A stretch of 64,000 nt of DNA from Chlorobiota bacterium (lineage in GTDB: Bacteria; Bacteroidota; Ignavibacteria; Kapaibacteriales; NICIL-2): the NCBI GenBank assembly GCA_026415505.1, contig JAOAGY010000032.1, forward strand, positions 1 to 64,000, given 5' to 3'. Shown here one piece after another: positions 9,684-61,634 of this stretch. The notes beneath the pieces were generated by a model, which was given only the letters and a program-made list of their open reading frames with translations, made no database searches and was not told where the DNA came from. Each line of letters opens with the position of its first letter. The stretch's first letter is position 1. The translations under genes and the position numbers were made by a program.

Positions 9684-10967
9684 ATGGACATTCTCTTCGA
9701 GCGCATCCGTATCGTCAGCCCCCTGGAGCGACGCAACGAGGTCGGTTACCTGTGGATACGCGACGGTACGATCGTCCACAGCGCAGCAGAGCCACCGACC
9801 GACGTACCGCCGACGACACGCCGGATCGATGCCGATGGTTGGATGGCTGCGCCGGGATTCGTGGACATGCACGTGCACCTTCGCGAACCGGGACAGACGC
9901 ACAAAGAAACGATTGAGACCGGAACAGCCGCTGCAGCGAACGGTGGCTTTACCGACGTTGTCTGCATGCCGAACACCGAGCCGGCGCTCGATTCGCCGAT
10001 GGCGATCGAATACGTTCGACATCGTGCGGCGGGACTTGTCGCCGTGCACGTCTGTGCTGCGATCACGCTCGGGCGACGCGGTGAACTTCTCACGCCAATG
10101 CATCAGCTCATCGAAGCAGGTGCAGTGATGTTTTCCGACGATGGCTCGTGTGTCCGCAGTGCGGAGATGATGCGTCGTGCGTTCGAATACGTTGCTCCGT
10201 TCGATGCGTTGCTGAGCCAGCATTGCGAAGAGCACTCGATGACCGAAGGATTCGACGTCAACGAAGGTGCCGTCGCAGCAAAACTCGGATTGCGAGGCTA
10301 TCCGAGCGTGGCTGAAGACATCATCGTCGCACGCGACATCTTGCTCGCCGAGTATTGCGGCAATCGGCGCTATCACGTCTCGCACCTGAGCACACGCGGA
10401 GCAGTGCGATTGGTGCGGCTTGCAAAGTCGTGGGGCTTGCGTGTCAGTGCCGAAGTGACACCGCACCATTTTACGCTCACCGAAGAAGCAGCCGACGGAT
10501 TCAATGCCAATGCCAAGATGAATCCGCCGCTCCGCACACGCGCCGATGTGGATGCGATCGTCGAGGCACTCGCCGATGGTACGATTGATGCGATTGCAAC
10601 CGATCACGCACCGCACACACGCGAAGAAAAAAGCCAGCTCTTTTCGCACGCTCCCAACGGCATCATCGGTCTGGAAACGGCAGTAGGGCTGACGCTGACG
10701 CGGCTCTACCGCGAGCATCGCTTTTCGCTCGAACGCATCGTCGAGTTACTGAGCATCGGTCCGCGTCGAGTGTTGGGTCTGGAGCAGCCGCGTCTTGCAG
10801 CGGGGCAGCCAGCGACGGTGACGATCGTCGCACTCGACCAGGAGTGGACAGTCGAGCCGGAGCGCTTCCGCAGCAAGTCGCGCAACACGCCGTTCGCGGG
10901 CTGGCACCTGGTCGGCAAACCGCGCTTTGTCTTCAATCGCGGAGCGATGTGGGAATGTCAGCTTTAG
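9684..10967 (+). CDS. pyrC: dihydroorotase
   Basis: APGFVDMHVHLREPGQTHKETIETGTAAAANGGFTDVVCMPNTEPALD; ATDHAPHTREEK. Confidence 0.95.
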   Translation: MDILFERIRIVSPLERRNEVGYLWIRDGTIVHSAAEPPTDVPPTTRRIDADGWMAAPGFVDMHVHLREPGQTHKETIETGTAAAANGGFTDVVCMPNTEPALDSPMAIEYVRHRAAGLVAVHVCAAITLGRRGELLTPMHQLIEAGAVMFSDDGSCVRSAEMMRRAFEYVAPFDALLSQHCEEHSMTEGFDVNEGAVAAKLGLRGYPSVAEDIIVARDILLAEYCGNRRYHVSHLSTRGAVRLVRLAKSWGLRVSAEVTPHHFTLTEEAADGFNANAKMNPPLRTRADVDAIVEALADGTIDAIATDHAPHTREEKSQLFSHAPNGIIGLETAVGLTLTRLYREHRFSLERIVELLSIGPRRVLGLEQPRLAAGQPATVTIVALDQEWTVEPERFRSKSRNTPFAGWHLVGKPRFVFNRGAMWECQL

Positions 10968-47101: not shown

Positions 47102-48119
47102 GTTCCGACATTATGCAGAATCGGCTCGCAAAATAGCACGCCTACTCGAGAGCAGCGATTCCATCGTCATCACTACCCACGTCCGTCCAGATGGCGATGC
47201 CGTCGGCTCGATGCTCGGTTTGAGCAATGCCTTGCGGATGCTCGGCAAGTCGCCGCGTTCAATCGTTTCATCGCCTGTGCCAGCGTTCCTGCGTTTTCTG
47301 CCGCACTGCGATACGATAGAGCAGTACAACCCGCTCTCCCACGATGGCGTAATCGCAACAGCAGATATCATCGTGTGCGTGGATTTCAACCATCTTTCAC
47401 GCATCGAATCTATGGAGCCGATCGTTGCTTCCTCGACTGCTCGACGCGTTCTGATCGATCATCACCTCGACCCGGAAGATGGCTTCGCTGCTGCATTGCA
47501 CGATACCGAGGTAGCTTCGACTGCCGAGCTTGTTTTCGCTCTTTTAGCGCTCGAATATCCAGCAACTGTAGACGGAGATGTCGCTATTCCACTTTACGTG
47601 GGCATTGTCACCGATACCGGGAGTTTCCGTTTTCCACGTGTTACGTCACGTACTCACCGGATAGTGGCAGCGTTGCTCGATCGCGGCGTTGATCCCCCAG
47701 CGATTCACCAAGCGCTCTTCGACACGAACACACCTGCACGCATGCGTTTGCTCGGCGAAGTACTTCGTTCGCTCGATGTCGTCTGCGATGGTCGTTGTGC
47801 GATATTGACAGTGACGCGAAGTGCTCTGCAAGCCGTAAATGCAACAATGGACGATACCGAAGGATTCGTTCAGCATACCCTCACGATCGAGGGTGTGCAA
47901 ATCGGCGTGTTCTTGAGCGAAATGTTCGAGCGCGATGCAGTGAAAATCTCGATGCGTTCGAAAGGCAATGCCGATGTGCGTCTGATTGCTGAACGATTCG
48001 GTGGCGGTGGGCATCTCAATGCTGCGGGTGCTATCGCCGAAGGAATGACGATCGAGCAGGTCAAAGCACAAATCATCGTGCTTGCTACTGAGCTCCTGAG
48101 CGCTCGGCGTAACGATTGA
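47088..48119 (+). CDS. nrnA: DHH/DHHA1 family phosphoesterase (NrnA-like oligoribonuclease)
   Basis: SIVITTHVRPDGDAVGSMLGLSNALRMLGK, VLIDHHLDPEDGF, ERFGGGGHLNAAGAI. Confidence 0.92.
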   Translation: MQHDEFRHYAESARKIARLLESSDSIVITTHVRPDGDAVGSMLGLSNALRMLGKSPRSIVSSPVPAFLRFLPHCDTIEQYNPLSHDGVIATADIIVCVDFNHLSRIESMEPIVASSTARRVLIDHHLDPEDGFAAALHDTEVASTAELVFALLALEYPATVDGDVAIPLYVGIVTDTGSFRFPRVTSRTHRIVAALLDRGVDPPAIHQALFDTNTPARMRLLGEVLRSLDVVCDGRCAILTVTRSALQAVNATMDDTEGFVQHTLTIEGVQIGVFLSEMFERDAVKISMRSKGNADVRLIAERFGGGGHLNAAGAIAEGMTIEQVKAQIIVLATELLSARRND

Positions 48120-48897
48120 AAGTCTCGGAATCAAGAAACGCTTTGCGCGCATGATCGGGAAGAAACATCGCCAACGTATAGCGCGTCAACACCGGTACCG
48201 AGCCACGAGCGATCAGCTTCGCAGCTTCGAGCTGGAGCATATCCAACTGGCGAGTTCGATCGAGCAACGCTTGCAACTGCTGTGCAATCGGGAGCCACAC
48301 GAAATTCGACGTGACCAATCCCCAGAGTGTCGCGCTGAATGCAAAGCCAATTCGATGGAGGAGTGCCGTTGGGGTATCTCCGCTGTGTCCCAGTGCTGAC
48401 GCCAGACCGATCACTGTGCCGATGATGCCCATCGTTGGTGCATATCCTGCAAGGCGACGGAAGAAGCCGATCGCTCGTTCGAACGATGCACGTTGTGACG
48501 CCAACAGTTTCTCGGACAGTTGCGCAATCGTATCGGCATCGAAACCATCGGCGCACAACTGCGCAATCGCAGCGGCAGACGAACAAGGCGCACGCGCAAT
48601 CATCGTACCGAGAGCGGTGATGCCGTCCCGTCGCCAACGAAGATTCAGCTCCAACCACCATTGTGCCACATGCACCGCATCGGGTGTTTTTTGCCACAGC
48701 AACCGGACACGAGACAGTGCCTCGATGGTATCAGCCGACGGTGTACCCGCAACGGTTGCGATGATCGAGCCGATAACGACGATTGCTATCGCGTCGAGAT
48801 TCCCAATGAACGCGAATGTTCCTGTTGCAACCACCGCGACGGCAACGACGAAGATTATCCCCACAGCGAAGGGAGTAAGCGTGCCCAGTTGCTTCAT
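48085..48897 (-). CDS. motA: MotA-like flagellar stator protein
   Basis: YAPTMGIIGTVIGLASAL, ATLWGLVTSNFVWLPIAQQL, RRDGITAL; overlaps the flgL stop (ATGA). Confidence 0.8.
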   Translation of the reverse strand: MKQLGTLTPFAVGIIFVVAVAVVATGTFAFIGNLDAIAIVVIGSIIATVAGTPSADTIEALSRVRLLWQKTPDAVHVAQWWLELNLRWRRDGITALGTMIARAPCSSAAAIAQLCADGFDADTIAQLSEKLLASQRASFERAIGFFRRLAGYAPTMGIIGTVIGLASALGHSGDTPTALLHRIGFAFSATLWGLVTSNFVWLPIAQQLQALLDRTRQLDMLQLEAAKLIARGSVPVLTRYTLAMFLPDHARKAFLDSETFNRYAERSGAQ

Positions 48898-49889
48898 TGC
48901 AGGAAATCGAAGAGCGAAATGCTGAGCAGTTTTGCTCCCACTTTGAGGCTGTATTCGTAGGCGATCTGATCGCGTTGGAGCTGCATCGTTGCTTCAGCGA
49001 CGTCGGTATCGCTGAGTTGCGAAAGAAAATCACGCTGCCGGGTGATGTCTTCGGCGAGCTGGTCATGTTGGCGTGTCATTCGTTCGGTGCGAATGCCGAC
49101 ATCGGCTGCTGCTTGGTTCACCACAGTCGTTGCATCGGCAATTTGTTTGACCAGCGCAGCGACAGCGTCGAGCTGCTCAGGCGTAGGATGTTGACCGTCG
49201 CCGCGAGGTGTGCCGTCGGCATTGAAGGCGAGAGTGTTGTACAAGGCAATCAGCGTATCGAAGACGGCAGTCCCACCGCTGCCGAAAACTTTGTCGGCAG
49301 TCGTCGAAACCTGCTCGGTGGATGCGTCGCCGGTTTGGACGTATCGAGGCTCGGTGTTCCCCTTGAAGCGCACCTGCAATCCAGAAGGGTTCGTAGGAGT
49401 CGGTGCGGTGGTAACCAATTCGTATGGTGTCGAGTCCTTCTCTGGTGGTGTCGTTGTCAGTGCAGAGGCAGTGTTTTTCGTACCTGCGAAGACGAAGATG
49501 TCACCGTGAGTCGCATTAGCAGACGCGATCACATCGCGAATCTTCGAGAGGACATTCTGCGCGAACACCGACCACTTGTCTTGATTGGCGATTTGGAGCG
49601 CATCGGTTCCGAGTGTGCGCACATCTGCCAGTGTTGTCCCGATCGCGTCGAGTGCCGTACTGGTTGTCTCTTGCTCGGCGAGCGCGCCGTCGAGCGTGTC
49701 CGAATAGCGTTGCATGCGTGATATAGTGCTGCGAAACGATGCGATATCCGCCATATCGGTGGGTGCGTCCGAAAGGTGCAGTATGCGTTGTCCTGTCGCC
49801 AGGCGCATCTGTTGTGCTGCTTGGCGAGCAGTAAGCTCGGTGAGCGTCGATTGAATCGAGCTACTGAGTGATTGCAAAGTCACACGCAT
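48894..49889 (-). CDS. flgL: flagellar hook-associated protein 3 (FlgL)
   Basis: MRVTLQSLSSSIQSTLTELTARQAAQQMRLATGQRILHLSDAPTDMADIASFRSTI; flagellin-like ends. Confidence 0.88.
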   Translation of the reverse strand: MRVTLQSLSSSIQSTLTELTARQAAQQMRLATGQRILHLSDAPTDMADIASFRSTISRMQRYSDTLDGALAEQETTSTALDAIGTTLADVRTLGTDALQIANQDKWSVFAQNVLSKIRDVIASANATHGDIFVFAGTKNTASALTTTPPEKDSTPYELVTTAPTPTNPSGLQVRFKGNTEPRYVQTGDASTEQVSTTADKVFGSGGTAVFDTLIALYNTLAFNADGTPRGDGQHPTPEQLDAVAALVKQIADATTVVNQAAADVGIRTERMTRQHDQLAEDITRQRDFLSQLSDTDVAEATMQLQRDQIAYEYSLKVGAKLLSISLFDFLQ

Positions 49890-49900
49890 AGCGTCTCCGG

Positions 49901-51340
49901 TTATCGTCCGAGATTGATTACTGTCGCGAGCATGTCGGATGTTGCAGTAACGATGCGAGCTGCCGCCTCGAACGAGCGTTGATATGTGATGAGATTGGTC
50001 GCCTCTTCGTCGAGGTTGACGCCACTGAGCGATTCACGCTCCGAGTTGACCTGCTCTAAGATCGTTTTTGCTGCCGAGAGCCGATCGTTTGTGCTCGCTC
50101 CCATTTGTGCCAATCGCGATGCGATCGAGCCGTAGTAACCTTCGGGAGTCATCGAGTCGAGGAAGGTGCCGTCGGTAGCCAGCGCGGCAATGGCTGTGAT
50201 GATGTCGCTGTTGCCCGGTGTGTTCGGTGTCGCCGATGTCGGGACCGCAGCAGGGTCGGTCACAAGGAGAGAATTGATGCTGATCGTGGATGCTGTTATC
50301 GTGCTCCCCGACGATGGAACGAAAATCGCGCGTGCCGGCGGAGTCGGACCCGTATCGTTCAAGCCATAGCCACCCGCAGCAATTGCATTGACGCGATCGG
50401 CAAAGGTTCGCGCGAGTCGGTCCAATTCGCGTGCGATCGAAAAACCGCTGCTCGTTGTCAGCGGATTGAGCGTGATGTTGTAGTGTTCTGCCAGCGATGC
50501 CAGCTCGCCGCTACGAGGCACGAGTGAACCGACTGTTGTGCCGTCGGGCTTCTCAACGGAGAATGCAAGAGTCGTTTCTCCGGTAGCACTATCGAGATTT
50601 TTCTGCACGCGGAGGGAAAGTGCTGTATCGAGAGACACAAGAACCATCCCGTTGCTTGAGACAGTGAGGCTTCCGCTGTCGTCGCGGGCAGCAGTGACGT
50701 CGAGATACTTCGACAATTCCTGCAATGCCTGGGTTTGTTCATCGGTCAGTGAGGGTGCAGTCTGCCCGCTTGCATTGCCACTGCCAGCGATGCGCCGGTT
50801 CAGGCTTGCGATCGTGGAAAGCAGTTGGTTGACGCGCTCGACGTCTTGCGTCGTTCGAACAAATGTACTTGAGCGGATGTCCTCGATAGCGAGGCTGCTG
50901 CGGTTGAATTGTGCTGCAAGGTCCGATGCTCGCGCGACGAACAATTGCCGGTCAGATAACCTCGAAGGATTCGCTGCAAGTTGACTGGCTGCGTCGAAAA
51001 ATCGCTGCATCGCTGTCTGCAGCGTTTGATCTCCGGGTTCGCCGAGTGCTTGTTCGATCTGAGCCAGGATCGTTGCATCTTGCTGGTAGCGATTCTGCGC
51101 TGCTGTGTAGGTACGCCAGTCACGCTCGATCAACGAATCTCGAAACTGACGAATACCAGCGGTGAGTACACCCATTCCGATCATCGTTCCGCCGAGGGAT
51201 ACTGTCTCTCCCGGACGAAGCATCAACGCTTGCCGTGAATAGCCAGCTGTGTTGACGTTGGCGATGTTGTTGGAAGTGACATCCAATCCGCGCTGGCTCG
51301 CCAGGAGGGCACGTTTGCCGATTTCGAGCGATGGGATCAT
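49901..51340 (-). CDS. flgK: flagellar hook-associated protein 1 (FlgK)
   Basis: MIPSLEIGKRALLASQRGLDVTSNNIANVNTAGYSRQ; C-term SGVNLDEEATNLITYQRSFEAAARIVTATSDMLATVINLGR. Confidence 0.95.
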   Translation of the reverse strand: MIPSLEIGKRALLASQRGLDVTSNNIANVNTAGYSRQALMLRPGETVSLGGTMIGMGVLTAGIRQFRDSLIERDWRTYTAAQNRYQQDATILAQIEQALGEPGDQTLQTAMQRFFDAASQLAANPSRLSDRQLFVARASDLAAQFNRSSLAIEDIRSSTFVRTTQDVERVNQLLSTIASLNRRIAGSGNASGQTAPSLTDEQTQALQELSKYLDVTAARDDSGSLTVSSNGMVLVSLDTALSLRVQKNLDSATGETTLAFSVEKPDGTTVGSLVPRSGELASLAEHYNITLNPLTTSSGFSIARELDRLARTFADRVNAIAAGGYGLNDTGPTPPARAIFVPSSGSTITASTISINSLLVTDPAAVPTSATPNTPGNSDIITAIAALATDGTFLDSMTPEGYYGSIASRLAQMGASTNDRLSAAKTILEQVNSERESLSGVNLDEEATNLITYQRSFEAAARIVTATSDMLATVINLGR

Positions 51341-51351
51341 GGCGCACACCT

Positions 51352-51852
51352 TTAGAGCGATGTGTTGATAGCGTGAAGTCCCTGTTCGCGCACGAACGAT
51401 AGCGTCGTTGCGATGCTGTTCTTGCCTCTCAATGCGAGCATGCGATTGATGCCGTTAGCCAGCTGCAACTGCCAGAGACGAGTGCGGAGAGAGTCTGCAA
51501 GCGTTTCGAGTGTGTCACGCGTGTCGGAAGGAAGCTGCTGGCAGATTTCTGACAGTGTAAGTTGGCGCGCTCGGTCCGCAGAGATGCCGAGCAACGTTGC
51601 AAGCAGTGCGATGCGCTGCTCTTCCATCCGACCGACTTGTTCGATGAGCGATTCCTGCTCCCGTGTCGAACGCTCGATACCGGAAGTGTCGAAGTGGACC
51701 AAGCACTCTTGCAAACGATGGGCGAGGGCGAGCATGGCTTCGATCGCTGCTGCTTGGCGATGCAGCAACTCGATCAATTCGTTCGTGACATCGGCACGGC
51801 AATCCATTGCGCAAGTTCCGATGGTGAGGATATCCGTCCAAAGTATCGGCAT
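51352..51852 (-). CDS. flgN: FlgN-like flagellar export chaperone
   Basis: Helical protein of FlgN length between flgJ and flgK; position-based. Confidence 0.6.
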   Translation of the reverse strand: MPILWTDILTIGTCAMDCRADVTNELIELLHRQAAAIEAMLALAHRLQECLVHFDTSGIERSTREQESLIEQVGRMEEQRIALLATLLGISADRARQLTLSEICQQLPSDTRDTLETLADSLRTRLWQLQLANGINRMLALRGKNSIATTLSFVREQGLHAINTSL

Positions 51853-51870: not shown

Positions 51871-52758
51871 TCATGTTCGCGAGCGGAACTGCTGCGCGAA
51901 TTGCTGAACTCGTTGCACGTAGTTCCGCGTTTCAGTGAATGGCGGAATGCCGCCGTGCCGCAACACAGCACCGGGACCGGCATTGTAGGCAGCCAATGCC
52001 AACGGTACGGAACCGAAACGATCGAGCATCATCCTGAGATACCGTGTTCCTCCGTCAATGTTTTCTTCTGGGTCGAAGACGTCACGAACACCGAGGTCGG
52101 CGGCTGTACCGTCCATGAGTTGCATCAGTCCTTTTGCACCAGCAGGAGACACTGCTTCCGGAACTCCGGCTGATTCGGCAGCGATGACTGCCTTGATGAG
52201 CCACGATGGAACGCGATAACGCGAGGCTGCGTTTTCGATGACTGTATCGAAGCGCTCTAACCGTGATTGGAGCTTTGCGTTTTTTTCTGGCGAGGGCGCT
52301 GGATCGGCAGGTGCGTGGGGTTGTGAGGTTTCGTGCGTTGTTGCGGGTAGTTTCGACAACTCGAGCGGCGTAGTGCGTGTCGTCACTAACGGCAATGCCG
52401 ATTCGCCTGTCAGGTGGCGGTACACCATTTCTGCGATACCGATGCCACGTCCCGATTGTGAAAGCTGGTCGGCAAGCTGCATCCCGCTCAGTGCGTCGAG
52501 CGCGTCAGCACCAAAACTCAGCTCGCCGTCGTTGTCGTCGTGTTCGTCGAGCATCGCCTGTCGCATCGTTTTGTACAGCTCGTGAATGAAGAGTGCTTCG
52601 AAACCACGAGCGACTTTTGCAGCTTGTTCGTGAGATATCGCGTTCGACGGTTGGGAGTTTTGTAGCACCTGTCCAAGCGATCGCCCTGCACTCTGCGATT
52701 GCAGTGCAACAGTCGCTCGATCGAGTGCGTCCGAACCAAGCGAAATGTCCATCGTCAT
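51871..52758 (-). CDS. flgJ: FlgJ-type rod-binding domain fused to SLT lytic transglycosylase domain
   Basis: N-term [24 protein letters not shown]...[26 protein letters not shown]-term [38 protein letters not shown]...[13 protein letters not shown]. Confidence 0.9.
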
Positions 52759-53852
52759 TGGATGATGAGTTCTGCTTGCAAGGAACCTGCCTGTTTGAGC
52801 GCTTGGAAAATAGCCACCAAATCGCGCGGGGAGACCTTCAGCGAATTGAGCGCATTTGCCAGGTCCTGTACGGTCGCCGTCGCCGGTAGCGCGACTGCAG
52901 GATTGCTCTGTTCTTGAGTGCGGACGAACGCATTCGAGACACGTGCTGTCGTGCCGATCGTAAAGGGTGCTGGCTGAACGACGGTGTTGAGCTGTTGGAT
53001 CTCGATTTCCAATCCACCATGCGCAACGACAGCGGGGAGCAATCGTACATTCCCACCGACGACGACGGTGCCTGTACGCTCGTTGATGACGACTTTGCCG
53101 GCGACGTCAACGCTTACCTCCGCCGATTCGATACGAGAGATGTACTCGATCGCCTGGGCTTGAGTTGTGCCTGTCGGAAACCGGACGACGACGGTTGCAG
53201 GATCGAGTGCCTGTGCCGTATTGGTGAGTCCTTCGAGCGCATTGATCGCCGTTGCGATTCGCGTTGCGGTGGTGTAGTCGGGATGATTCAAGACGATGCG
53301 AACCTCGCTACTCACCTTCGTCGAGTTTTCGACATTTCGTTCGAGCAGCAGTCCTGCTGGAACGCGCCCGGTGTTGGTCATGTTCTTTCCGGACCGCGAG
53401 CCGAGCGAGCTGACATCGTAGCCTCCGACACTCACCGGACCTTGAGCCATGCCATAGACGGTGCCGTCGGTAGCGACAAGCGGTGTCATGATCAGTGTTC
53501 CGCCCTGAAGTGAACGTGCATCTCCCAGACTGGAAACGGTGACATCTACTTTCGTGCCGGCACGTGCGAATGCGGGGATCGTTGCCGTCACCATGACCGC
53601 AGCAACATTCTGAGTACGCTGGAGAAAAATGTTCTGCTGCGGCGTGATGCCGAAGCGTTTGAGCATGTTCAAGACCGATTGAATCGTGAAATTCGAGCGT
53701 GGCGAGTCGCCCGTATTGTTGAGCCCCGTGACCAAACCATAGCCGACGACTTGGATACCTCCGCTGCCTTCGATCGTCGCAATGTCTTTGATGCGATCGG
53801 CAGACGCTCCGGTAATTGCCAGGGCAAGCAGCAGTATGATTCGTCGAGCCAT
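52755..53852 (-). CDS. flgI: flagellar P-ring protein
   Basis: [77 protein letters not shown]. Confidence 0.95.
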
Positions 53853-53865
53853 CGTCGTGGAATCC

Positions 53866-54429
53866 TCAGAACAAGAATCGCAAGAATTTGGTGAAGAGTC
53901 CCGGCTCCTGCGCCTTTGAGATGACGCCGTCGCCGTTGTAGATGAGAACAAGATCGGCAATTTGATACGAGTAAACGGTGTTGTCCGGCGAGATGTCCAC
54001 AAAACGAACGAAGCCGCGGAGCGTGATTGTTTGTGTCTCGCCGTTGATGCTCACTGTTCGTGTCCCTTCGATACGAAGTGCATTGAGATTACTCGCATCG
54101 GTGATACGTGCGGTGAGCTTTGCGCGGACACTCTCGGATCGGTTCGTTGTCCCTTGCCCGCTGAACGAGTTTTTCGTTCCGATACCCACGCCGGCACTGC
54201 CTTGGTTGTTGCCGAGCGAGCCGCTGGCTTGAGCGCTCAAATCGGTCGTCGTATTGTTTTGTGTTGTTGCTCGGTTGTCAGCTTGAGCGTCCTCGACGAT
54301 CAAGATGGTGACGACATCGCCCGTGCGGAATGCCTTGACGTCCGAATAGAGCGAGCGTGTGGCGCTCTCGGTGAATTGAGCCAGGCACCCAACGACTGCT
54401 GACATCAGGAGTACGATAGAGCATCTCAT
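53866..54429 (-). CDS. flgH: flagellar L-ring protein
   Basis: RSLYSDVKAFRTGDVVTILIVEDAQADNRATTQNNTTTDLS; FVRFVDISPDNTVYSYQIADLVLIYNGDGVI. Confidence 0.93.
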   Translation of the reverse strand: MRCSIVLLMSAVVGCLAQFTESATRSLYSDVKAFRTGDVVTILIVEDAQADNRATTQNNTTTDLSAQASGSLGNNQGSAGVGIGTKNSFSGQGTTNRSESVRAKLTARITDASNLNALRIEGTRTVSINGETQTITLRGFVRFVDISPDNTVYSYQIADLVLIYNGDGVISKAQEPGLFTKFLRFLF

Positions 54430-55190
54430 GGTGCTTGTCCGATTGGTTGCGATTGGTGAGAGTTGAGCTCGACGATGACGGTTCGGCGATCGGCGAGCGT
54501 ACCGACCAACACAGCGCCCGTATCGGAACGACGTACTTTCACGCGATCGCCGGGTTCGGCGTTTTGGAGGACATTTGCTGTTGTACGAATGGAGATCGCT
54601 CCGCTGCGGAGGATGAGATTGACGCTTTCGCCACTGCGAATACTGCCACCGCCGACGACATAGGTGCGGAGCAGGGGAGTGCCTGCTGCAATGCTCTGTG
54701 CCGCGCGCAGTCCGATGACTGAGTCGGGCAGTAGCTCCATGAAGCCGGTGGCATCGCGCAGCTCGTAGATGACGTCGCTCGATTCGATAGTTTCACCGCG
54801 TTGGAGTGGTCGCTTGGCGACGGGTACCATCCTGCGTGGTGTGATCTTGATCGGAACGCGCAGACGACGAAGTTCTTCTCCGTCAGCTTGAAACGATACT
54901 TCGACAACCGTCCGTCCCCATATCCGATCGTCGGGCAAACGGCAGTACGCAACGACGAAAGGACGATCGAAACGGACCTCGTCGAGCGGCGCAAGGATGC
55001 TGATCTCGTCGCTGTCGCCGATCCGTTCGCGCAGGAATGCTTCGATACCGCGCTGGAGCGTCGCAGGCGAGAACCGTGCTTCTTGCGGCTGCCCGAGAGC
55101 CGTTGACGAAATCGCCAACGATGTCGCCAGTACAGTTACCGCGGCGAGCATGCACGTTCCGTATCGCACACGTTCGATGAGCGTTCGCAT
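54426..55190 (-). CDS. flgA: flagellar basal-body P-ring formation chaperone (FlgA, SAF domain)
   Basis: PVAKRPLQRGETIESSDVIYELRDATGFMELLPDSVIGLRAAQSIAAGTPLL. Confidence 0.88.
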   Translation of the reverse strand: MRTLIERVRYGTCMLAAVTVLATSLAISSTALGQPQEARFSPATLQRGIEAFLRERIGDSDEISILAPLDEVRFDRPFVVAYCRLPDDRIWGRTVVEVSFQADGEELRRLRVPIKITPRRMVPVAKRPLQRGETIESSDVIYELRDATGFMELLPDSVIGLRAAQSIAAGTPLLRTYVVGGGSIRSGESVNLILRSGAISIRTTANVLQNAEPGDRVKVRRSDTGAVLVGTLADRRTVIVELNSHQSQPIGQAP

Positions 55191-55192
55191 CG

Positions 55193-55984
55193 TTACCGTT
55201 TGAGATTGACTGCAGTGCCGAGGATGTTGTCAGCTGTCTGTACGGACTTCGAGTTGATTTCGTATGCGCGCTGAGCGATGATCATGCTGACCATTTCTTG
55301 CACCAGGTCAACATTGGACGACTCCAGATGCCCTTGGATGAGTTCACCGGTGTTGTTTGTGCCGGGTTGCTCTTCGATCGGCAGACCCGATGCGGTCGTC
55401 GCGACGAAGAGATTGTCGCCGACCGAACGCAAACCAGCAGGATTGACGAATCGAACGAGCGTGATGCGTCCGATTTCTTGTTCGTCGGTTTGATTGTTAC
55501 CGAACACAGCAGTGACGATGCCATCGCGACTTATGCGGACCGTCGTTGCGTTGTCGGGGATCGTGATACGAGGTTCGAGAAAGTAACCCTGCGAAGTCAC
55601 GATTTCGCCATTGCGGTTGACAGTAAACGAGCCGTCGCGTGTGTAGGCAATGGTGTTGTCGGGACGGAGCACCTGGAAAAAACCTTCGCCATTGATTGCA
55701 AGGTCGAGCATGTTGCCGGTCTCGGTCACGGTGCCTTGCGAGAATTGCCGTGTCGTCGCGACGAGTTCAGTGCCGCTGCCGACCTGCACGTCCGGTAACG
55801 GCTCGATCCCAGCAGCAGCCGTTGTGCCCATGGGTCGCACCGTTTCATAGAGCAGGTCCTGGAATTCAGGACGCACACGCTTGTAGCCGGTCGTATTGAC
55901 GTTCGCCAAATTGTTGGCGATGATTTCGACAAATCGCTGCTGTGCACTCAAGCCGGTTGCGGCTGTGGTCAATGTTTTGTCCAT
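55193..55984 (-). CDS. flgG: flagellar distal rod protein FlgG
   Basis: TTAATGLSAQQRFVEIIANNLANVNTTGYKRVRPEFQDLLYETVRP; C-term LESSNVDLVQEMVSMIIAQRAYEINSKSVQTADNILGTAVNLKR. Confidence 0.95.
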   Translation of the reverse strand: MDKTLTTAATGLSAQQRFVEIIANNLANVNTTGYKRVRPEFQDLLYETVRPMGTTAAAGIEPLPDVQVGSGTELVATTRQFSQGTVTETGNMLDLAINGEGFFQVLRPDNTIAYTRDGSFTVNRNGEIVTSQGYFLEPRITIPDNATTVRISRDGIVTAVFGNNQTDEQEIGRITLVRFVNPAGLRSVGDNLFVATTASGLPIEEQPGTNNTGELIQGHLESSNVDLVQEMVSMIIAQRAYEINSKSVQTADNILGTAVNLKR

Positions 55985-56005: not shown

Positions 56006-56788
56006 TTAGGCAGTGAATCGTCCTATGTCGATCGAGCGATCGAGAGTCGAGTCGTTGGTCTGGATGACCTTCTGTCCTAACTCGAACATCCGTTGAAGTT
56101 GGATCATCGTGACCATCTCGCTGACAATATTCACATTGGATGCTTCGAGATAGCCTTGTTGAACGGCGATTCTTGTCGGGTCGAGTTCGACGATTTCTGT
56201 TGTGTCGGTCGGGACGAAGCTCGTCGCGCTCGAACGCTGTAGCGACTGGGGATTGGCGACTTCGACGACGCGTAGTTGAGCGACGTACTGCCCGTTGAGT
56301 TGAACTTCGCCTTGTGGCGAGATTTGGATCTGTCGTGCGATACGATCGTTGGATGGTGTATCGCCGAACGCCGGCAGCTCGATTTGGAGCGGACCGCTCG
56401 TCGAAAGGAGGTATCGTCCGTCGGCGGTGACGACGTAACCGCGATCATCGAGTGTGAAATGCCCCGCTCTTGTGAGATGCTCTGTCCCGTCAGTGTCGGC
56501 GACGACGAAAAATGTTGCATTTCCGTCGAGTGCAACATCGAGCGGGTTACCGGTCTTTTGAATTGCACCTGGACGGAAGTCGATGTACTGGCTGAGGGGG
56601 AGGTCTTCGGTTTCGGCATCGCCGCGAACGTTGAGCAAGTTCTCCCGCGCTTCGATGAGCGATTGTTCGAAAATACCGCCGCGTTTGAAGCCGACTGTAT
56701 TGGCATTGGCGAGGTTGTTGGCGGTGATTTCCAACCTCGTTTGCTGCGGCAACATGCCGAGTGCGGCAGTGTAGAGTTCCTTGAGCAT
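56006..56788 (-). CDS. flgF: flagellar hook-basal body rod protein (FlgF-like)
   Basis: LYTAALGMLPQQTRLEITANNLANANTVGFKRGGIFEQSL; EASNVNIVSEMVTMIQLQRMFELGQKVIQTNDSTLDRSIDIGRF. Confidence 0.85.
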   Translation of the reverse strand: MLKELYTAALGMLPQQTRLEITANNLANANTVGFKRGGIFEQSLIEARENLLNVRGDAETEDLPLSQYIDFRPGAIQKTGNPLDVALDGNATFFVVADTDGTEHLTRAGHFTLDDRGYVVTADGRYLLSTSGPLQIELPAFGDTPSNDRIARQIQISPQGEVQLNGQYVAQLRVVEVANPQSLQRSSATSFVPTDTTEIVELDPTRIAVQQGYLEASNVNIVSEMVTMIQLQRMFELGQKVIQTNDSTLDRSIDIGRFTA

Positions 56789-56830
56789 CCGTGCTACCGT
56801 CGAAAGTCCTGCATCCTACTCACTAATGCC

Positions 56831-56845
56831 GCAAGATGTGTGCCA
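56831..56845 (-). promoter_or_regulatory. sigma-54 (-24/-12) promoter of the flagellar operon
   Basis: Minus-strand TGGCACACATCTTGC: GG-N10-GC spacing, close to TGGCACGN4TTGCW; about 42 nt upstream of the flgF ATG. Confidence 0.65.
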
Positions 56846-56850
56846 ATAGC

Positions 56851-56894
56851 AGTGAACAAAAACGAAGCGGGTGAACCGCAAAGGCTCACCCGCT
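56851..56894 (-). terminator. intrinsic terminator of the VWA/HYDIN gene
   Basis: Minus strand AGCGGGTGA-loop-TCACCCGCT (9-bp perfect stem) followed by TCGTTTTTGTTC. Confidence 0.75.
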
Positions 56895-56918: not shown

Positions 56919-59900
56919 TTAGCGAGTTATCACTACCGGCTCGACAATCGAGCGCAGAGGCGTCAACAGCCTGACGAAATAGGTACCGCTTGGAATACTG
57001 CCGGTCGGTACAACATACGTGAACTCGCCACGACTATTCCCCTCAGCAATGCGGAGTACTTCTGTACCGAGCGGTGAAAACAGTTCGAGCTTGTACGGAA
57101 TGTCTTCGCCGATGGTGACCGAGAGAACAAGATCGCTCGTTGCCGATTGCCCGGTCGAAATCGCGGTTGGTTCAGTGATCGTTACACGGCGCACCTGCTG
57201 TGCACAGTAGTAAGGCGTTGTAACCAGACCGTCGGTGCTCCGGACAACGATGCAGGGGTAATCGTTGGCATTGAGCAGCGTGGCACGGATAGTCTGCACC
57301 ATCGCATCGGTAACGAATGTCGTCACTGGAATTTGTACATCGAGTGTACCCGTCATGATGCCCAAAGCACTGGTACCATCGAGAATTGTTCCAGTCGGTA
57401 GATGTTGGAGCGACCATGTCCAGCCGTTCTGAAGCGATTGGAAGCTGGCGTCGTCAATTTCGATTGCTGTGATCGAATAGTCGAGCTGAAGCCGTAATCG
57501 TCGTACAAGAGATCCGGCGTCTGGCGATGTTACAAGCTTGATTGTAATCGGTTTCGTCTGTCCGACATCGATCGTGGCATTGCCGACTGCGATATCGAGG
57601 GTACGTGTTACGCCTGTTGCTGTAAAGGTTGCTCGAAATGGCTGTGCCAGTGCTGGCGATGATATCGTCACGACAATTGTGCGTGTGCCCGCGACCGGAG
57701 TGTACCGAATGGTAATGGTTGTAGAGCCGCCGGCGGGCACGACGGAATCGCTTGCCGTCACGACAAAGTCTGCGACGTCACCTTGTGTAGCGATCGTGAA
57801 AGGTTCAGTTTGAGTGCCCGGATTGCTGAGAGTTATCGTTCGAGTGACAACGGATTCGCACAAGAGAATCTCGCCGAAATCTTGCGGTGTTGTGATCGAG
57901 AGGGCAAGACCGATGCCACTCACTGTGACCGTTGTTGTAGCGTCGGGATCGGTTTGAGGACCTGGCGCAGCGTCGGATACAATTGTGATACGAGCGACGT
58001 TGGGTCCGGCTTGCCGTGGCTGGAATCGCATCGGCAATACCAGCGAATCACCGATCGGAATTGTTACGTTCGATTGCGGTGGCGCGGTGAACGAGAAACT
58101 TGCGTCATCGGGATCGCTGATGCGCTTGACGACCAGTGGAGCGGTCGTGCTCGTATTGCGGATGACCAGCGGCACAACCTCTGGCGAGAGATCGCCGACC
58201 GGCCAGGGCGAGAAGGTCACATCTGGTGCTTCGATCTTGGGCAGCGTTCCTATGCCGGTTGTGCGTGCTGCAATTGGTCCGCCGAGACCTTGGACGGAAA
58301 CCTCGATCCATTCACCGAGATTGCCTTCGTTCTGTGGCGAGAACGTGACATCGAAAGAACGCTCTTGACCGGCTGGCAGAGTAAACGGCGTTGCAGGAAG
58401 GTTCCCAAGCTGGAAGTCCCCGCTGGGACTACGGAGCCGAATACTTGTAATCACCGCGTCGAGCGAGTCGTTGGTGTTGCGGATGCGCGCCGGCATTGTT
58501 GTTGTCGTCAGCAGGCGATGGGGTCCGAATTGCGGGACTTGTAGCTCCACTTCCGATGGTAAGGCGATACCGGTGATCGTCTGTTGTTGTGTACCGCCGC
58601 ATTTATCGGGTAATTCGATAACGAAGGATGCTGTCTGTTGTCCTGCGACACTCGGCAGAAAACCGATATCCACGACCAAGCATTGTCCCGGTGCGAGGTC
58701 GAACGGACATCCAGTTGTGGCATCGAGCGTACAACCGGTTGCCGGAATTGTCGCGCTGAAGGCGTTTGTGGGATCGTTCGCAAGTTTGATTGTGCCGGAC
58801 AACGCTTCGTTGCCTGTGTTGCGCAACAAGCAATGATTGCTGAGCTGGCGGAGAACGCCGACACTGGTCGTAATTGGTGGTGGGGCGGTGATCGTGTACT
58901 TGCACGGTGGCAACCCCAGTCCGGTCACAGCGACTGTTGCAGGGTTGCCACAGTTGCCTTGTACCGTGAGTGTCGCATTGTGTATTCCTTCGGCTGCTGG
59001 TAGGAACAATAGCTCGATGCTCACACACTCTCCCGGTTTGAGTACGTAGTCTTTCCAATTGGAGACGAGCTGGAATTGTGCGGCGTTCGGTCCGCTAAAG
59101 CTCATGGTCGTGATGATGATCGGAATTTCTCCATCGTTGCAGAGCACACCACTGAAAACACGCGACGTCGTTTCCCCTGCCGCAATGGAGCCGACGTCGA
59201 GTGTTGGCACGCGGAATCGGATGAGCGGAGATTGAACTCGGAAGGTTGTATCGCTGACGTCTTCGGAGCCAGGGATAAAGCCGAATTTGCGCAGATAGAC
59301 GTCGGTTCCGCCACGACTGGTCAACGTAATCGAGCCGCTTCGAAGCTGAGTGTCGAATCCGCCGGTTTCATAGCGGTTACCGTCGTTGTCTCGAATGCTC
59401 GGTTTCGTGTACGGTGCGGCGATGTAGCGCTTCTGGAGACTGGTGACGGTCAGCGATGTATTGAAAATGGCTGTGAAGGGATCGAAAACATTCGCGTTGG
59501 TGCTATTGATCGAGATGGAGGGTGTCGTGTTGAATTGCAATTTGCCTTTGAACCATCCATAAAGGTAAATCGAGCCACCGGTGAACGCAATGGAGTCCAC
59601 TCGTACTTCGGTGGCACCTGTACCGCCTCCTCCTCCGACTGCAACTTGAATCGCATTACCGCTCGGCGAATAGACAGCTATGAACGCATTGTTGACATCG
59701 AGTGCGTTCGACTTGCTGACCGTTGCACTACCGAACTGCGCCGTACTGCTGCGGAACGTCCCTGCCACGTAGAGATTGTCGTTGTTGTCAATTGCCAGGC
59801 AACAGCCAACATCGGTTCGGTTGCCGCCACCATTGCGTGCCCAGATCAAATTCCCATCCGTGTCAAAGCGGGCAACGAACATATCGCTTTCGCCGTACCC

Positions 59901-61541
59901 GGTGAGTGTCGTCCCATTGATTGTAGCGGTGTTGGTGAACGTTCCTGCGATGTGGACGTACATCTGCCGCGAATCGAGCACTACCGACCGGCATGTATCG
60001 AAACTCGATCCGCCGATCTGCTGCGCCCATTGATAGGCTGAATCAGGAGGAACAACGACTCGAATACGATAGTTCTGCCCAGCCTGTGGTGGCTTCCAAC
60101 GGAATGAATAACCCGTTGCTTGCCTGGTGATGAGCTGCCATGTTGGTGTTGGGCGATTGCCGTCTGCTGCGTAGTAAATATCAACGCCCTGATTCGGTTC
60201 GACACCTGCCCAGCGGATAATTACCGAATCACACGTCGAAAACAACTCCCCACCGTTCGGCGAGACGACCAGTGCACGCGATAGACCGCCGATAAGCGTG
60301 ACGGACGTTGGACAAGGATTCCCATCGAGCGTCAGCGTTGCTTGACGGAATTGCTTTGAACCCTGTTGCGTGAATTGAACGGTCGGCTCCCATGTTTCGC
60401 CCGGTTGTAGCGTGAACGGCAGCGTCTTGCCTGCCATGTCCACGATTGTGTAAAAACCGGTAGGAACAATCGGCAGTGCCGTAATCTGCATCGGTGCGTT
60501 GACTGCTCTGATTGTCAGTTTGACGGTTGTCGAAATGCCGGGATTGGGGTTGCCGAAGTATGCTACCGAAGGAGTGATGTCCAGCCGTGCTACAGACTGT
60601 GGCGGTGCGACATACTGCAGCGATGATGACGTCGGAGGTGTCGTTCGCAAGAACGATGCGTTGACGTTTCTGATGCGTTCTTGTTCGGAACAGCTCCATG
60701 GTGCCGTCCATTCCAGGAAGCATTTTTCACGCATGGTCGTCTCCAATGCGATGAGGCGGTAGATGTCTTTGAGCCGTTCTTTTGTGAACACTGCATATGA
60801 CTTGCCGCCTGTAGTCCGTGCGATTCGATCGAGATCGGCGTTCATACTCAAACCGACCGTGATTGCGTAAAAAGTGATCGCTTCCCGGCGGCACCGTGCG
60901 ATGATCGTATCTGTCTGCGGAGGGTTGTCGGGTTGACCATCGGTCAAGAAGATGACGATACGACGAATCGTGCGTGGCATCAACGATAGAAGTTTGATGG
61001 CGCCGAACGATGTGTCGAGCATCGGTGGATCGTACTTTGTCGAGCCGTCAGGGCGAATCTTGTTGAGCGAGTCGAGAATCGGTTGAGCCGTCGTCTTGAA
61101 CGGGCATGTCAACTCTGCGACCCCACCGAAAGTTACAAGCGCAACAGAGGACGGAGGATTGAACGGGAACTGCCGCAAGAATTCAGCAACTCCAGCTTTG
61201 ACCCAATCCCACCGGGTTTCCCGTGTACTGCCGTCAACGATCTCCAGCATAGAGGCGCTACGATCGACAACAAGGACAACGTTGGCTTTGGGATCTTCTT
61301 GGCTCAATTCGCAGACGACTTGTAAGGTCGCCTGCATCGAACGTCCATTTTCAATGACCGAAAAATCGTTCGGTTGCAAGTTCGTGTACGGGTTGCCCCA
61401 TTGATCAGAGGCGATAAATTGCGATCGAACGCGCGGGTAATTACTGAGGTCAACATCAACGAGCGTGAACGTCTGTGTTTTTGCAAGCTCAGGTACAAGG
61501 AGCAGTGTTGCGGCAACTGCAAGCGTAGCTAACCGATTCAT
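56919..61541 (-). CDS. 1540-aa secreted VWA domain / beta-propeller-like / HYDIN-type protein with T9SS-like C-terminal domain
   Basis: Signal peptide; VWA core VVLVVDRSASMLEI...IVIFLTDGQPDNPPQT; propeller-like DMFVARFDTDGNLIWARNGGGNRTDVGCCLAIDNNDNLYVAGTF; HYDIN-type repeats; C-term LELFSPLGTEVLRIAEGNSRGEFTYVVPTGSIPSGTYFVRLLTPLRSIVEPVVITR. Confidence 0.8.
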   Translation of the reverse strand: MNRLATLAVAATLLLVPELAKTQTFTLVDVDLSNYPRVRSQFIASDQWGNPYTNLQPNDFSVIENGRSMQATLQVVCELSQEDPKANVVLVVDRSASMLEIVDGSTRETRWDWVKAGVAEFLRQFPFNPPSSVALVTFGGVAELTCPFKTTAQPILDSLNKIRPDGSTKYDPPMLDTSFGAIKLLSLMPRTIRRIVIFLTDGQPDNPPQTDTIIARCRREAITFYAITVGLSMNADLDRIARTTGGKSYAVFTKERLKDIYRLIALETTMREKCFLEWTAPWSCSEQERIRNVNASFLRTTPPTSSSLQYVAPPQSVARLDITPSVAYFGNPNPGISTTVKLTIRAVNAPMQITALPIVPTGFYTIVDMAGKTLPFTLQPGETWEPTVQFTQQGSKQFRQATLTLDGNPCPTSVTLIGGLSRALVVSPNGGELFSTCDSVIIRWAGVEPNQGVDIYYAADGNRPTPTWQLITRQATGYSFRWKPPQAGQNYRIRVVVPPDSAYQWAQQIGGSSFDTCRSVVLDSRQMYVHIAGTFTNTATINGTTLTGYGESDMFVARFDTDGNLIWARNGGGNRTDVGCCLAIDNNDNLYVAGTFRSSTAQFGSATVSKSNALDVNNAFIAVYSPSGNAIQVAVGGGGGTGATEVRVDSIAFTGGSIYLYGWFKGKLQFNTTPSISINSTNANVFDPFTAIFNTSLTVTSLQKRYIAAPYTKPSIRDNDGNRYETGGFDTQLRSGSITLTSRGGTDVYLRKFGFIPGSEDVSDTTFRVQSPLIRFRVPTLDVGSIAAGETTSRVFSGVLCNDGEIPIIITTMSFSGPNAAQFQLVSNWKDYVLKPGECVSIELLFLPAAEGIHNATLTVQGNCGNPATVAVTGLGLPPCKYTITAPPPITTSVGVLRQLSNHCLLRNTGNEALSGTIKLANDPTNAFSATIPATGCTLDATTGCPFDLAPGQCLVVDIGFLPSVAGQQTASFVIELPDKCGGTQQQTITGIALPSEVELQVPQFGPHRLLTTTTMPARIRNTNDSLDAVITSIRLRSPSGDFQLGNLPATPFTLPAGQERSFDVTFSPQNEGNLGEWIEVSVQGLGGPIAARTTGIGTLPKIEAPDVTFSPWPVGDLSPEVVPLVIRNTSTTAPLVVKRISDPDDASFSFTAPPQSNVTIPIGDSLVLPMRFQPRQAGPNVARITIVSDAAPGPQTDPDATTTVTVSGIGLALSITTPQDFGEILLCESVVTRTITLSNPGTQTEPFTIATQGDVADFVVTASDSVVPAGGSTTITIRYTPVAGTRTIVVTISSPALAQPFRATFTATGVTRTLDIAVGNATIDVGQTKPITIKLVTSPDAGSLVRRLRLQLDYSITAIEIDDASFQSLQNGWTWSLQHLPTGTILDGTSALGIMTGTLDVQIPVTTFVTDAMVQTIRATLLNANDYPCIVVRSTDGLVTTPYYCAQQVRRVTITEPTAISTGQSATSDLVLSVTIGEDIPYKLELFSPLGTEVLRIAEGNSRGEFTYVVPTGSIPSGTYFVRLLTPLRSIVEPVVITR

Positions 61542-61634
61542 GATTGAAATCCTCCAAATGTAGATGCCATCGTACTGACGAAAAATTTTACACATGCATT
61601 GCACAACAATAACACTCAGGCAAGCTATCTTGTA

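Follow-up and report, generated by a model that had tools for sequence, protein, structure and literature searches.

The window, by which we mean the whole 64,000 nt stretch of DNA analysed here, from an uncultured Kapabacteria/Ignavibacteria-type bacterium, carries on its minus strand a run of ten genes, from 56788 to 48085, in the order flgF-flgG-flgA-flgH-flgI-SLT/rod-binding-flgN-flgK-flgL-MotA/ExbB (Table 1). Gene order and family matches support the ten-gene flagellar run proposed in the initial annotation of this DNA, which also placed a terminator and a near-consensus sigma-54 promoter ahead of flgF. Upstream lies a gene for a VWA/HYDIN-Ig protein, which by its sequence is predicted to be secreted and to end in a type IX-like C-terminal tail. 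The stop codon of this gene at 56919 and the ATG of flgF at 56788, both on the minus strand, enclose a gap of 130 nt, exactly as annotated.

Table 1. Features of the flagellar run, the gap ahead of it and the upstream gene, with window coordinates.
Feature	Position	Strand	Basis or remark
VWA/HYDIN-Ig protein gene, upstream	56919..61604	minus	start codon uncertain
VWA gene intrinsic terminator hairpin	56866..56894	minus	12 pairs (8 GC); U-tract directly after
Predicted sigma-54 promoter TTGGCACACATCTTGCG	56830..56846	minus	direct reading, matrix rank, order-wide conservation
-24 element TTGGCAC	56846-56840	minus	part of TTGGCACACATCTTGCG
-12 element TTGC	56834-56831	minus	part of TTGGCACACATCTTGCG
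Predicted transcription start, +1	56819	minus	12 nt downstream of the -12 C; predicted from sigma-54 geometry
Predicted flgF leader, 31 nt	56789..56819	minus	predicted from the +1 position
flgF, first in operon	56006..56788	minus	best family FlgEFG; TIGR02490 flgF just below cut-off
flgG	55193..55984	minus	TIGR02488 above cut-off
flgA	54426..55190	minus	family match
flgH	53866..54429	minus	E 1e-37, below curated cut-off
flgI	52755..54002	minus	family match; true start probably downstream of the listed one
FlgJ-like rod-binding protein with SLT transglycosylase domain	51871..52758	minus	family match
flgN	51352..51852	minus	family match
flgK	49901..51349	minus	family match
flgL	48894..49889	minus	family match
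MotA/TolQ/ExbB-type protein, final gene of run	48085..48897	minus	family match

The annotated terminator of the VWA gene is borne out: a GC-rich hairpin at 56894-56866 is followed just 3' by the U-tract TCGTTTTTGT, the combination that marks an intrinsic terminator, and the 69 nt around it have a folding energy of -29.8 kcal/mol (z = -3.9). A hairpin lies 5' of the promoter in 6/6 same-genus genomes, with unrelated hairpin sequences and, in one genome (G005), a weak U-tract. Since the hairpin is kept despite this change of sequence, insulation of the promoter seems to be maintained within the genus.

Read directly on the minus strand from 56846 to 56830, the putative promoter consists of T, TGGCAC, A, CATC, TTGC and G, in which GG (56844-56843) and GC (56832-56831) are separated by exactly N10. 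Relative to YTGGCACG-N4-TTGCW there are two mismatches (G to A and W to G), so that both the spacing and the number of departures from consensus originally given hold on direct reading. If C56831 is taken as the -12 base, transcription would start at 56819 and flgF would have a leader of 31 nt. The pattern TGGCACN5TTGC occurs without mismatch only once in the 64-kb window, at this site, with a chance expectation for YTGGCAC-N5-TTGC of 0.05 in the window and about 4e-5 per 100-nt single-strand gap. A sigma-54 weight matrix also ranks the site first in the window, and it alone among the top matrix sites lies outside genes. Genome-wide, the pattern with one mismatch is found 261 times, as compared with 266 for a reversed-pattern control, and five of 17 exact matches, including the flgF site, are clear of called genes. 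Given that the genome-wide counts do not exceed those of the reversed control, resemblance alone is weak, and it is position and conservation that carry the evidence.

Conservation at flgF orthologues, a check set beforehand, was assessed by scanning the 800 nt that precede flgF for GGCA-N6-TTG in each of 54 genomes of the order. The motif is present on the coding strand in 49 of them; with any of eleven other spacings between the half-sites the count falls to 2-8, and the reverse strand gives 0-7. Another flagellar operon behaves alike, with the motif upstream of flgB in 51/54 genomes (controls 0-11); one of the three misses offers only 144 nt of upstream sequence to scan. The five genomes of the 54 without the flgF motif all belong to one flagellated genus (g7 of family f5; G020, G027, G033, G038 and G043). 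They also lack the C41-type activator described below, and four of the five retain the flgB site.

Unbiased motif discovery by expectation-maximisation, using one genome per genus and, for flgB, the non-coding upstream part, returned a sigma-54-type motif in 28/29 genera for flgF and 31/31 for flgB. TGGCA and TTG are near-invariant in the discovered motifs, and the -12 C stands at 15% (flgF) and 7% (flgB). No other motif shared upstream of flgF is as strong as this type of site. Its distance to flgF ranges from about 45 to 530 nt among relatives and its spacer letters vary, so the conservation is not flanking homology. In many relatives the distance is 200-530 nt because a short gene intervenes between site and flgF (L221 in G014, where it encodes an FlhB C-terminal-domain protein, L134 in G016, L141 in G029 and L151 in G060 are examples); the window's own genus lacks it and the promoter abuts flgF.

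Several other features of these upstream regions were observed in passing. In one genome (G082, contig C29; L191 and L137) rpoN itself is found some 2 kb ahead of flgF, and in most genomes of family f1 a short block near TATCGGC stands just 5' of the flgB -24 element. In Candidatus Kapabacteria KatS3mg040 (G004; L048 and L227) only the first 73 matching residues of flgF are left, and a FlgC search gave no match; the flgF sigma-54 site is nonetheless intact. Flagellar loss is possibly in progress in this genome.

The initial annotation regarded GG-N10-GC as the diagnostic spacing and expected it to be conserved upstream of flgF. The GG, the spacing and the TTG are indeed kept, but the C is not the rule: most relatives have GG-N10-GT or GG-N10-GA, so that a scan restricted to GC would miss them. 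By genome, the -12 base is C in 13, T in 22 and A in 14 at flgF (n=49), and C in 8, T in 27, A in 11 and G in 3 at flgB (n=49); by genus, C is found in 4/28 and 3/28, respectively, with usually T or A in its place. The -12 C used as a diagnostic is thus a minority state across the order. At flagellar loci of other phyla matching the same pattern, which are not all upstream of flgF or flgB, C occupies -12 in 20/24 non-coding sites and A in the remaining four (order versus other phyla, Fisher p 8e-7 for flgF and 1e-7 for flgB). Read by eye, two Rhodothermales have GG-N10-GA and GG-N10-GT upstream of flgF.

The genome encodes a single rpoN (C32:7509-7982, E 2.8e-54) with a full DNA-binding domain, and the gene is present in 97/99 genomes of the order, so the objection that the sigma factor might be absent fails. 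With rpoN present and the site conserved at flgF, the sigma-54 promoter first proposed for this operon is well supported. All 26 sequences from the order have an unaltered RpoN box, ARRTVAKYREQ. The first helix-turn-helix reads MHESTISR in E. coli-type RpoN as opposed to LDISTVCR or close variants in this lineage. Published structures attribute recognition of the -12 GC to H377, S379 and R383 (PMC9770992), and crosslinks to promoter DNA are reported for E378 and R383 (PMC5505868). When aligned to solved sigma-54 chains (E. coli numbering), the equivalents of H377-E378 are D-I or D-V in 26/26 RpoN of the order and D-I/V in all 70 copies sampled from the phylum; R383 is kept, as is S379 save in a few sequences (genus g24, for example, has A). 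The canonical -12 recognition helix (H377, S379 and R383 with E378) is therefore not what RpoN carries in the order or the phylum sample, and the occurrence of D-I/V in 70/70 phylum copies indicates that the residue change is older and wider than the order. From these sequences we infer that recognition of the -12 element has become relaxed in this lineage, in connection with the altered helix.

We place a probability of roughly 80% on the explanation as a whole, namely an RpoN-driven promoter for flgF to flgL, part of an order-wide middle-flagellar regulon with altered reading of the -12 element. RpoN-containing RNA polymerase would form a closed complex at TTGGCAC (-24) and TTGC (-12), and a sigma-54 activator would then open this complex using ATP. 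The hairpin would block readthrough from the VWA gene, so that the flagellar genes would answer mainly to the sigma-54 promoter. As flgB and probably fliJ-flgD-flgE share this kind of promoter, the middle flagellar genes would form a sigma-54 regulon across the order. The altered helix, with D-I/V for H377-E378, would read a -12 element in which TTG is needed and the following C is dispensable. The motif and its conservation, the changed -12 base, the changed residues, and the presence of rpoN and activators are read directly from the sequences; we infer the use of RpoN at this site in the cell, the position of the start site and the causal step from helix to base. A broader form of the last point, which we put forward tentatively and at somewhat under even odds, is that the phylum-wide helix change drops the need for the -12 C, leaving promoters of the form GG-N10-G, most of which standard scans would miss, order-wide flagellar regulons included. 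This link between helix and base is a correlation of one phylum against the rest, with flagellar promoters as the only sites read within the phylum.

The strongest competing explanation is that this is an ordinary sigma-54 promoter, RpoN recognition is unchanged and AT-rich genomes have lost the -12 C through mutational drift or a weakening of the promoter. Upstream regions are AT-rich in many relatives, the four A-bearing sites show that other phyla also depart from C, and the window's own genus retains C at flgF. On the other hand, GGCA and TTG are near-invariant in the very same sites, the residues that contact the -12 GC have changed, and the own genus is split, with A in all four readable flgB sites versus C in 6/6 flgF sites; on balance we consider drift rather unlikely. 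It is distinctly improbable that flgF is transcribed mainly from another promoter, whether of the housekeeping sigma factor or by readthrough from the VWA gene, with the sigma-54-like site secondary. A hairpin parts the two genes in 6/6 same-genus genomes and the sigma-54-type site is the strongest motif that the region shares; no sigma-70-type site was found in the gap with an E. coli-type scan, from whose targets the Bacteroidota housekeeping promoters (TAnnTTTG, PMC9723704) differ. Chance resemblance without function, to which the lack of genome-wide excess and the location of most other exact matches inside genes might have pointed, is already refuted by conservation at two unlinked operons (49/54 and 51/54) under spacing and strand controls, and its likelihood is negligible.

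Other flagellar promoters of this genome fit an RpoN-driven middle-flagellar regulon. The genome's own flgB site, CTGGCACAGAACTTGAG, has A at -12 and lies about 39 nt upstream of the ATG, and a site in the fliI-fliJ gap, TTGGCGCATTTGTTGCG, precedes fliJ, a MotE-like gene, a probable fliK, flgD and flgE, where it is probably a sigma-54 promoter for fliJ-flgD-flgE. The flagellin gene fliC (contig C39) has instead a sigma-28-like TAAAGTTT-N12-GCCGATAC (L169, ~10912-10940, minus, own genome G000). Taken together, the predicted flagellar promoters resemble a cascade from sigma-54 to sigma-28, the sigma-28 part being the reading of one site. Flagellin-like fragments are also present at four contig ends of this genome (C10, C12, C35 and C41; L158-L161), those of C35 and C41 with matching coordinates, which suggests that fliC copies are repeated and broken by assembly.

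Three strong PF00158 sigma-54 activators are encoded in the genome: an AAA-HTH protein without a receiver domain (C17), a receiver-AAA regulator (C34) and a receiver-AAA-HTH protein (C41). The expectation of NtrC-type activators is therefore upheld, but none of the three is demonstrably of the flagellar FlrC/FlgR-like type, and no dedicated flagellar activator or kinase was found beside the flagellar genes. The C34 regulator (L003/L166), which has no C-terminal HTH in Pfam and no family above its NCBIfam cut-off, is missing from the non-flagellated family f2 (23/23 genomes) and is encoded by almost every flagellated genome; it is also kept in the non-flagellated genera g9, g25 and g22. It is the best candidate for the flagellar activator, with a partial phyletic fit that falls short of identification. 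By the same phyletic profile, the C17 protein was rejected as near-universal, including in the non-flagellated family, and the C41 protein as widespread yet absent from f5. A candidate dyad, GTGCAGGATGCAC, is perfect in the flgF leader of one relative and near-perfect upstream of the genome's own flgB; it was discarded as an activator site, being absent from other same-genus genomes. On C41, an intergenic TTGGCACTGGGTTTGCC (L167, 3914-3930, minus) lies 36 nt upstream of a gene for a PAS-PAS histidine kinase, near a flagellin fragment; the kinase might pair with a sigma-54 response regulator.

Flagellar genes under sigma-54 are well known from other bacteria, and in Vibrio, Pseudomonas, Campylobacter and Helicobacter the middle flagellar genes are sigma-54-dependent within FlrC/FleR/FlgR-type cascades. 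As in these systems, the genome studied here has -24/-12 promoters ahead of rod, ring and hook genes, encodes RpoN and NtrC-type activators, and has a sigma-28-like promoter before fliC; it differs in phylum and in a -12 element that usually lacks C across the order. The flgF promoter itself thus belongs to a well-known kind, and what is unexpected is the order-wide loss of the -12 C together with the changed helix. Within the phylum as delimited by GTDB, Flavobacterium psychrophilum has a sigma-54 regulon (motif SM4) backed by transcription start sites and promoter mutagenesis, which controls chaperones and gliding genes from promoters described as typical -24/-12 (PMC9723704). Three PF00158 activators are common to both organisms, but the genes concerned here are flagellar. 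A class-level survey (PMC12316311) and Francke et al. 2011 (PMC3162934), in the portions available, connect sigma-54 with flagella and with the cell exterior in different phyla, with motility enrichment mainly in Pseudomonadota and Thermodesulfobacteriota. Ignavibacteria were not found mentioned in the available portion of the 2025 survey text (PMC12316311), and nothing relevant was found in the literature on sigma-54 and flagella in Ignavibacteria or Kapabacteria.

The present analysis would add a flagellated branch near Chlorobi/Bacteroidota, for which we found no description, to the lineages with a sigma-54 flagellar programme. It also provides a matched pair of changes, in one promoter base and two sigma-factor residues, open to direct testing in vitro. 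Should the helix indeed account for the base, the GG-N10-GC rule would undercount sigma-54 regulons in the phylum.
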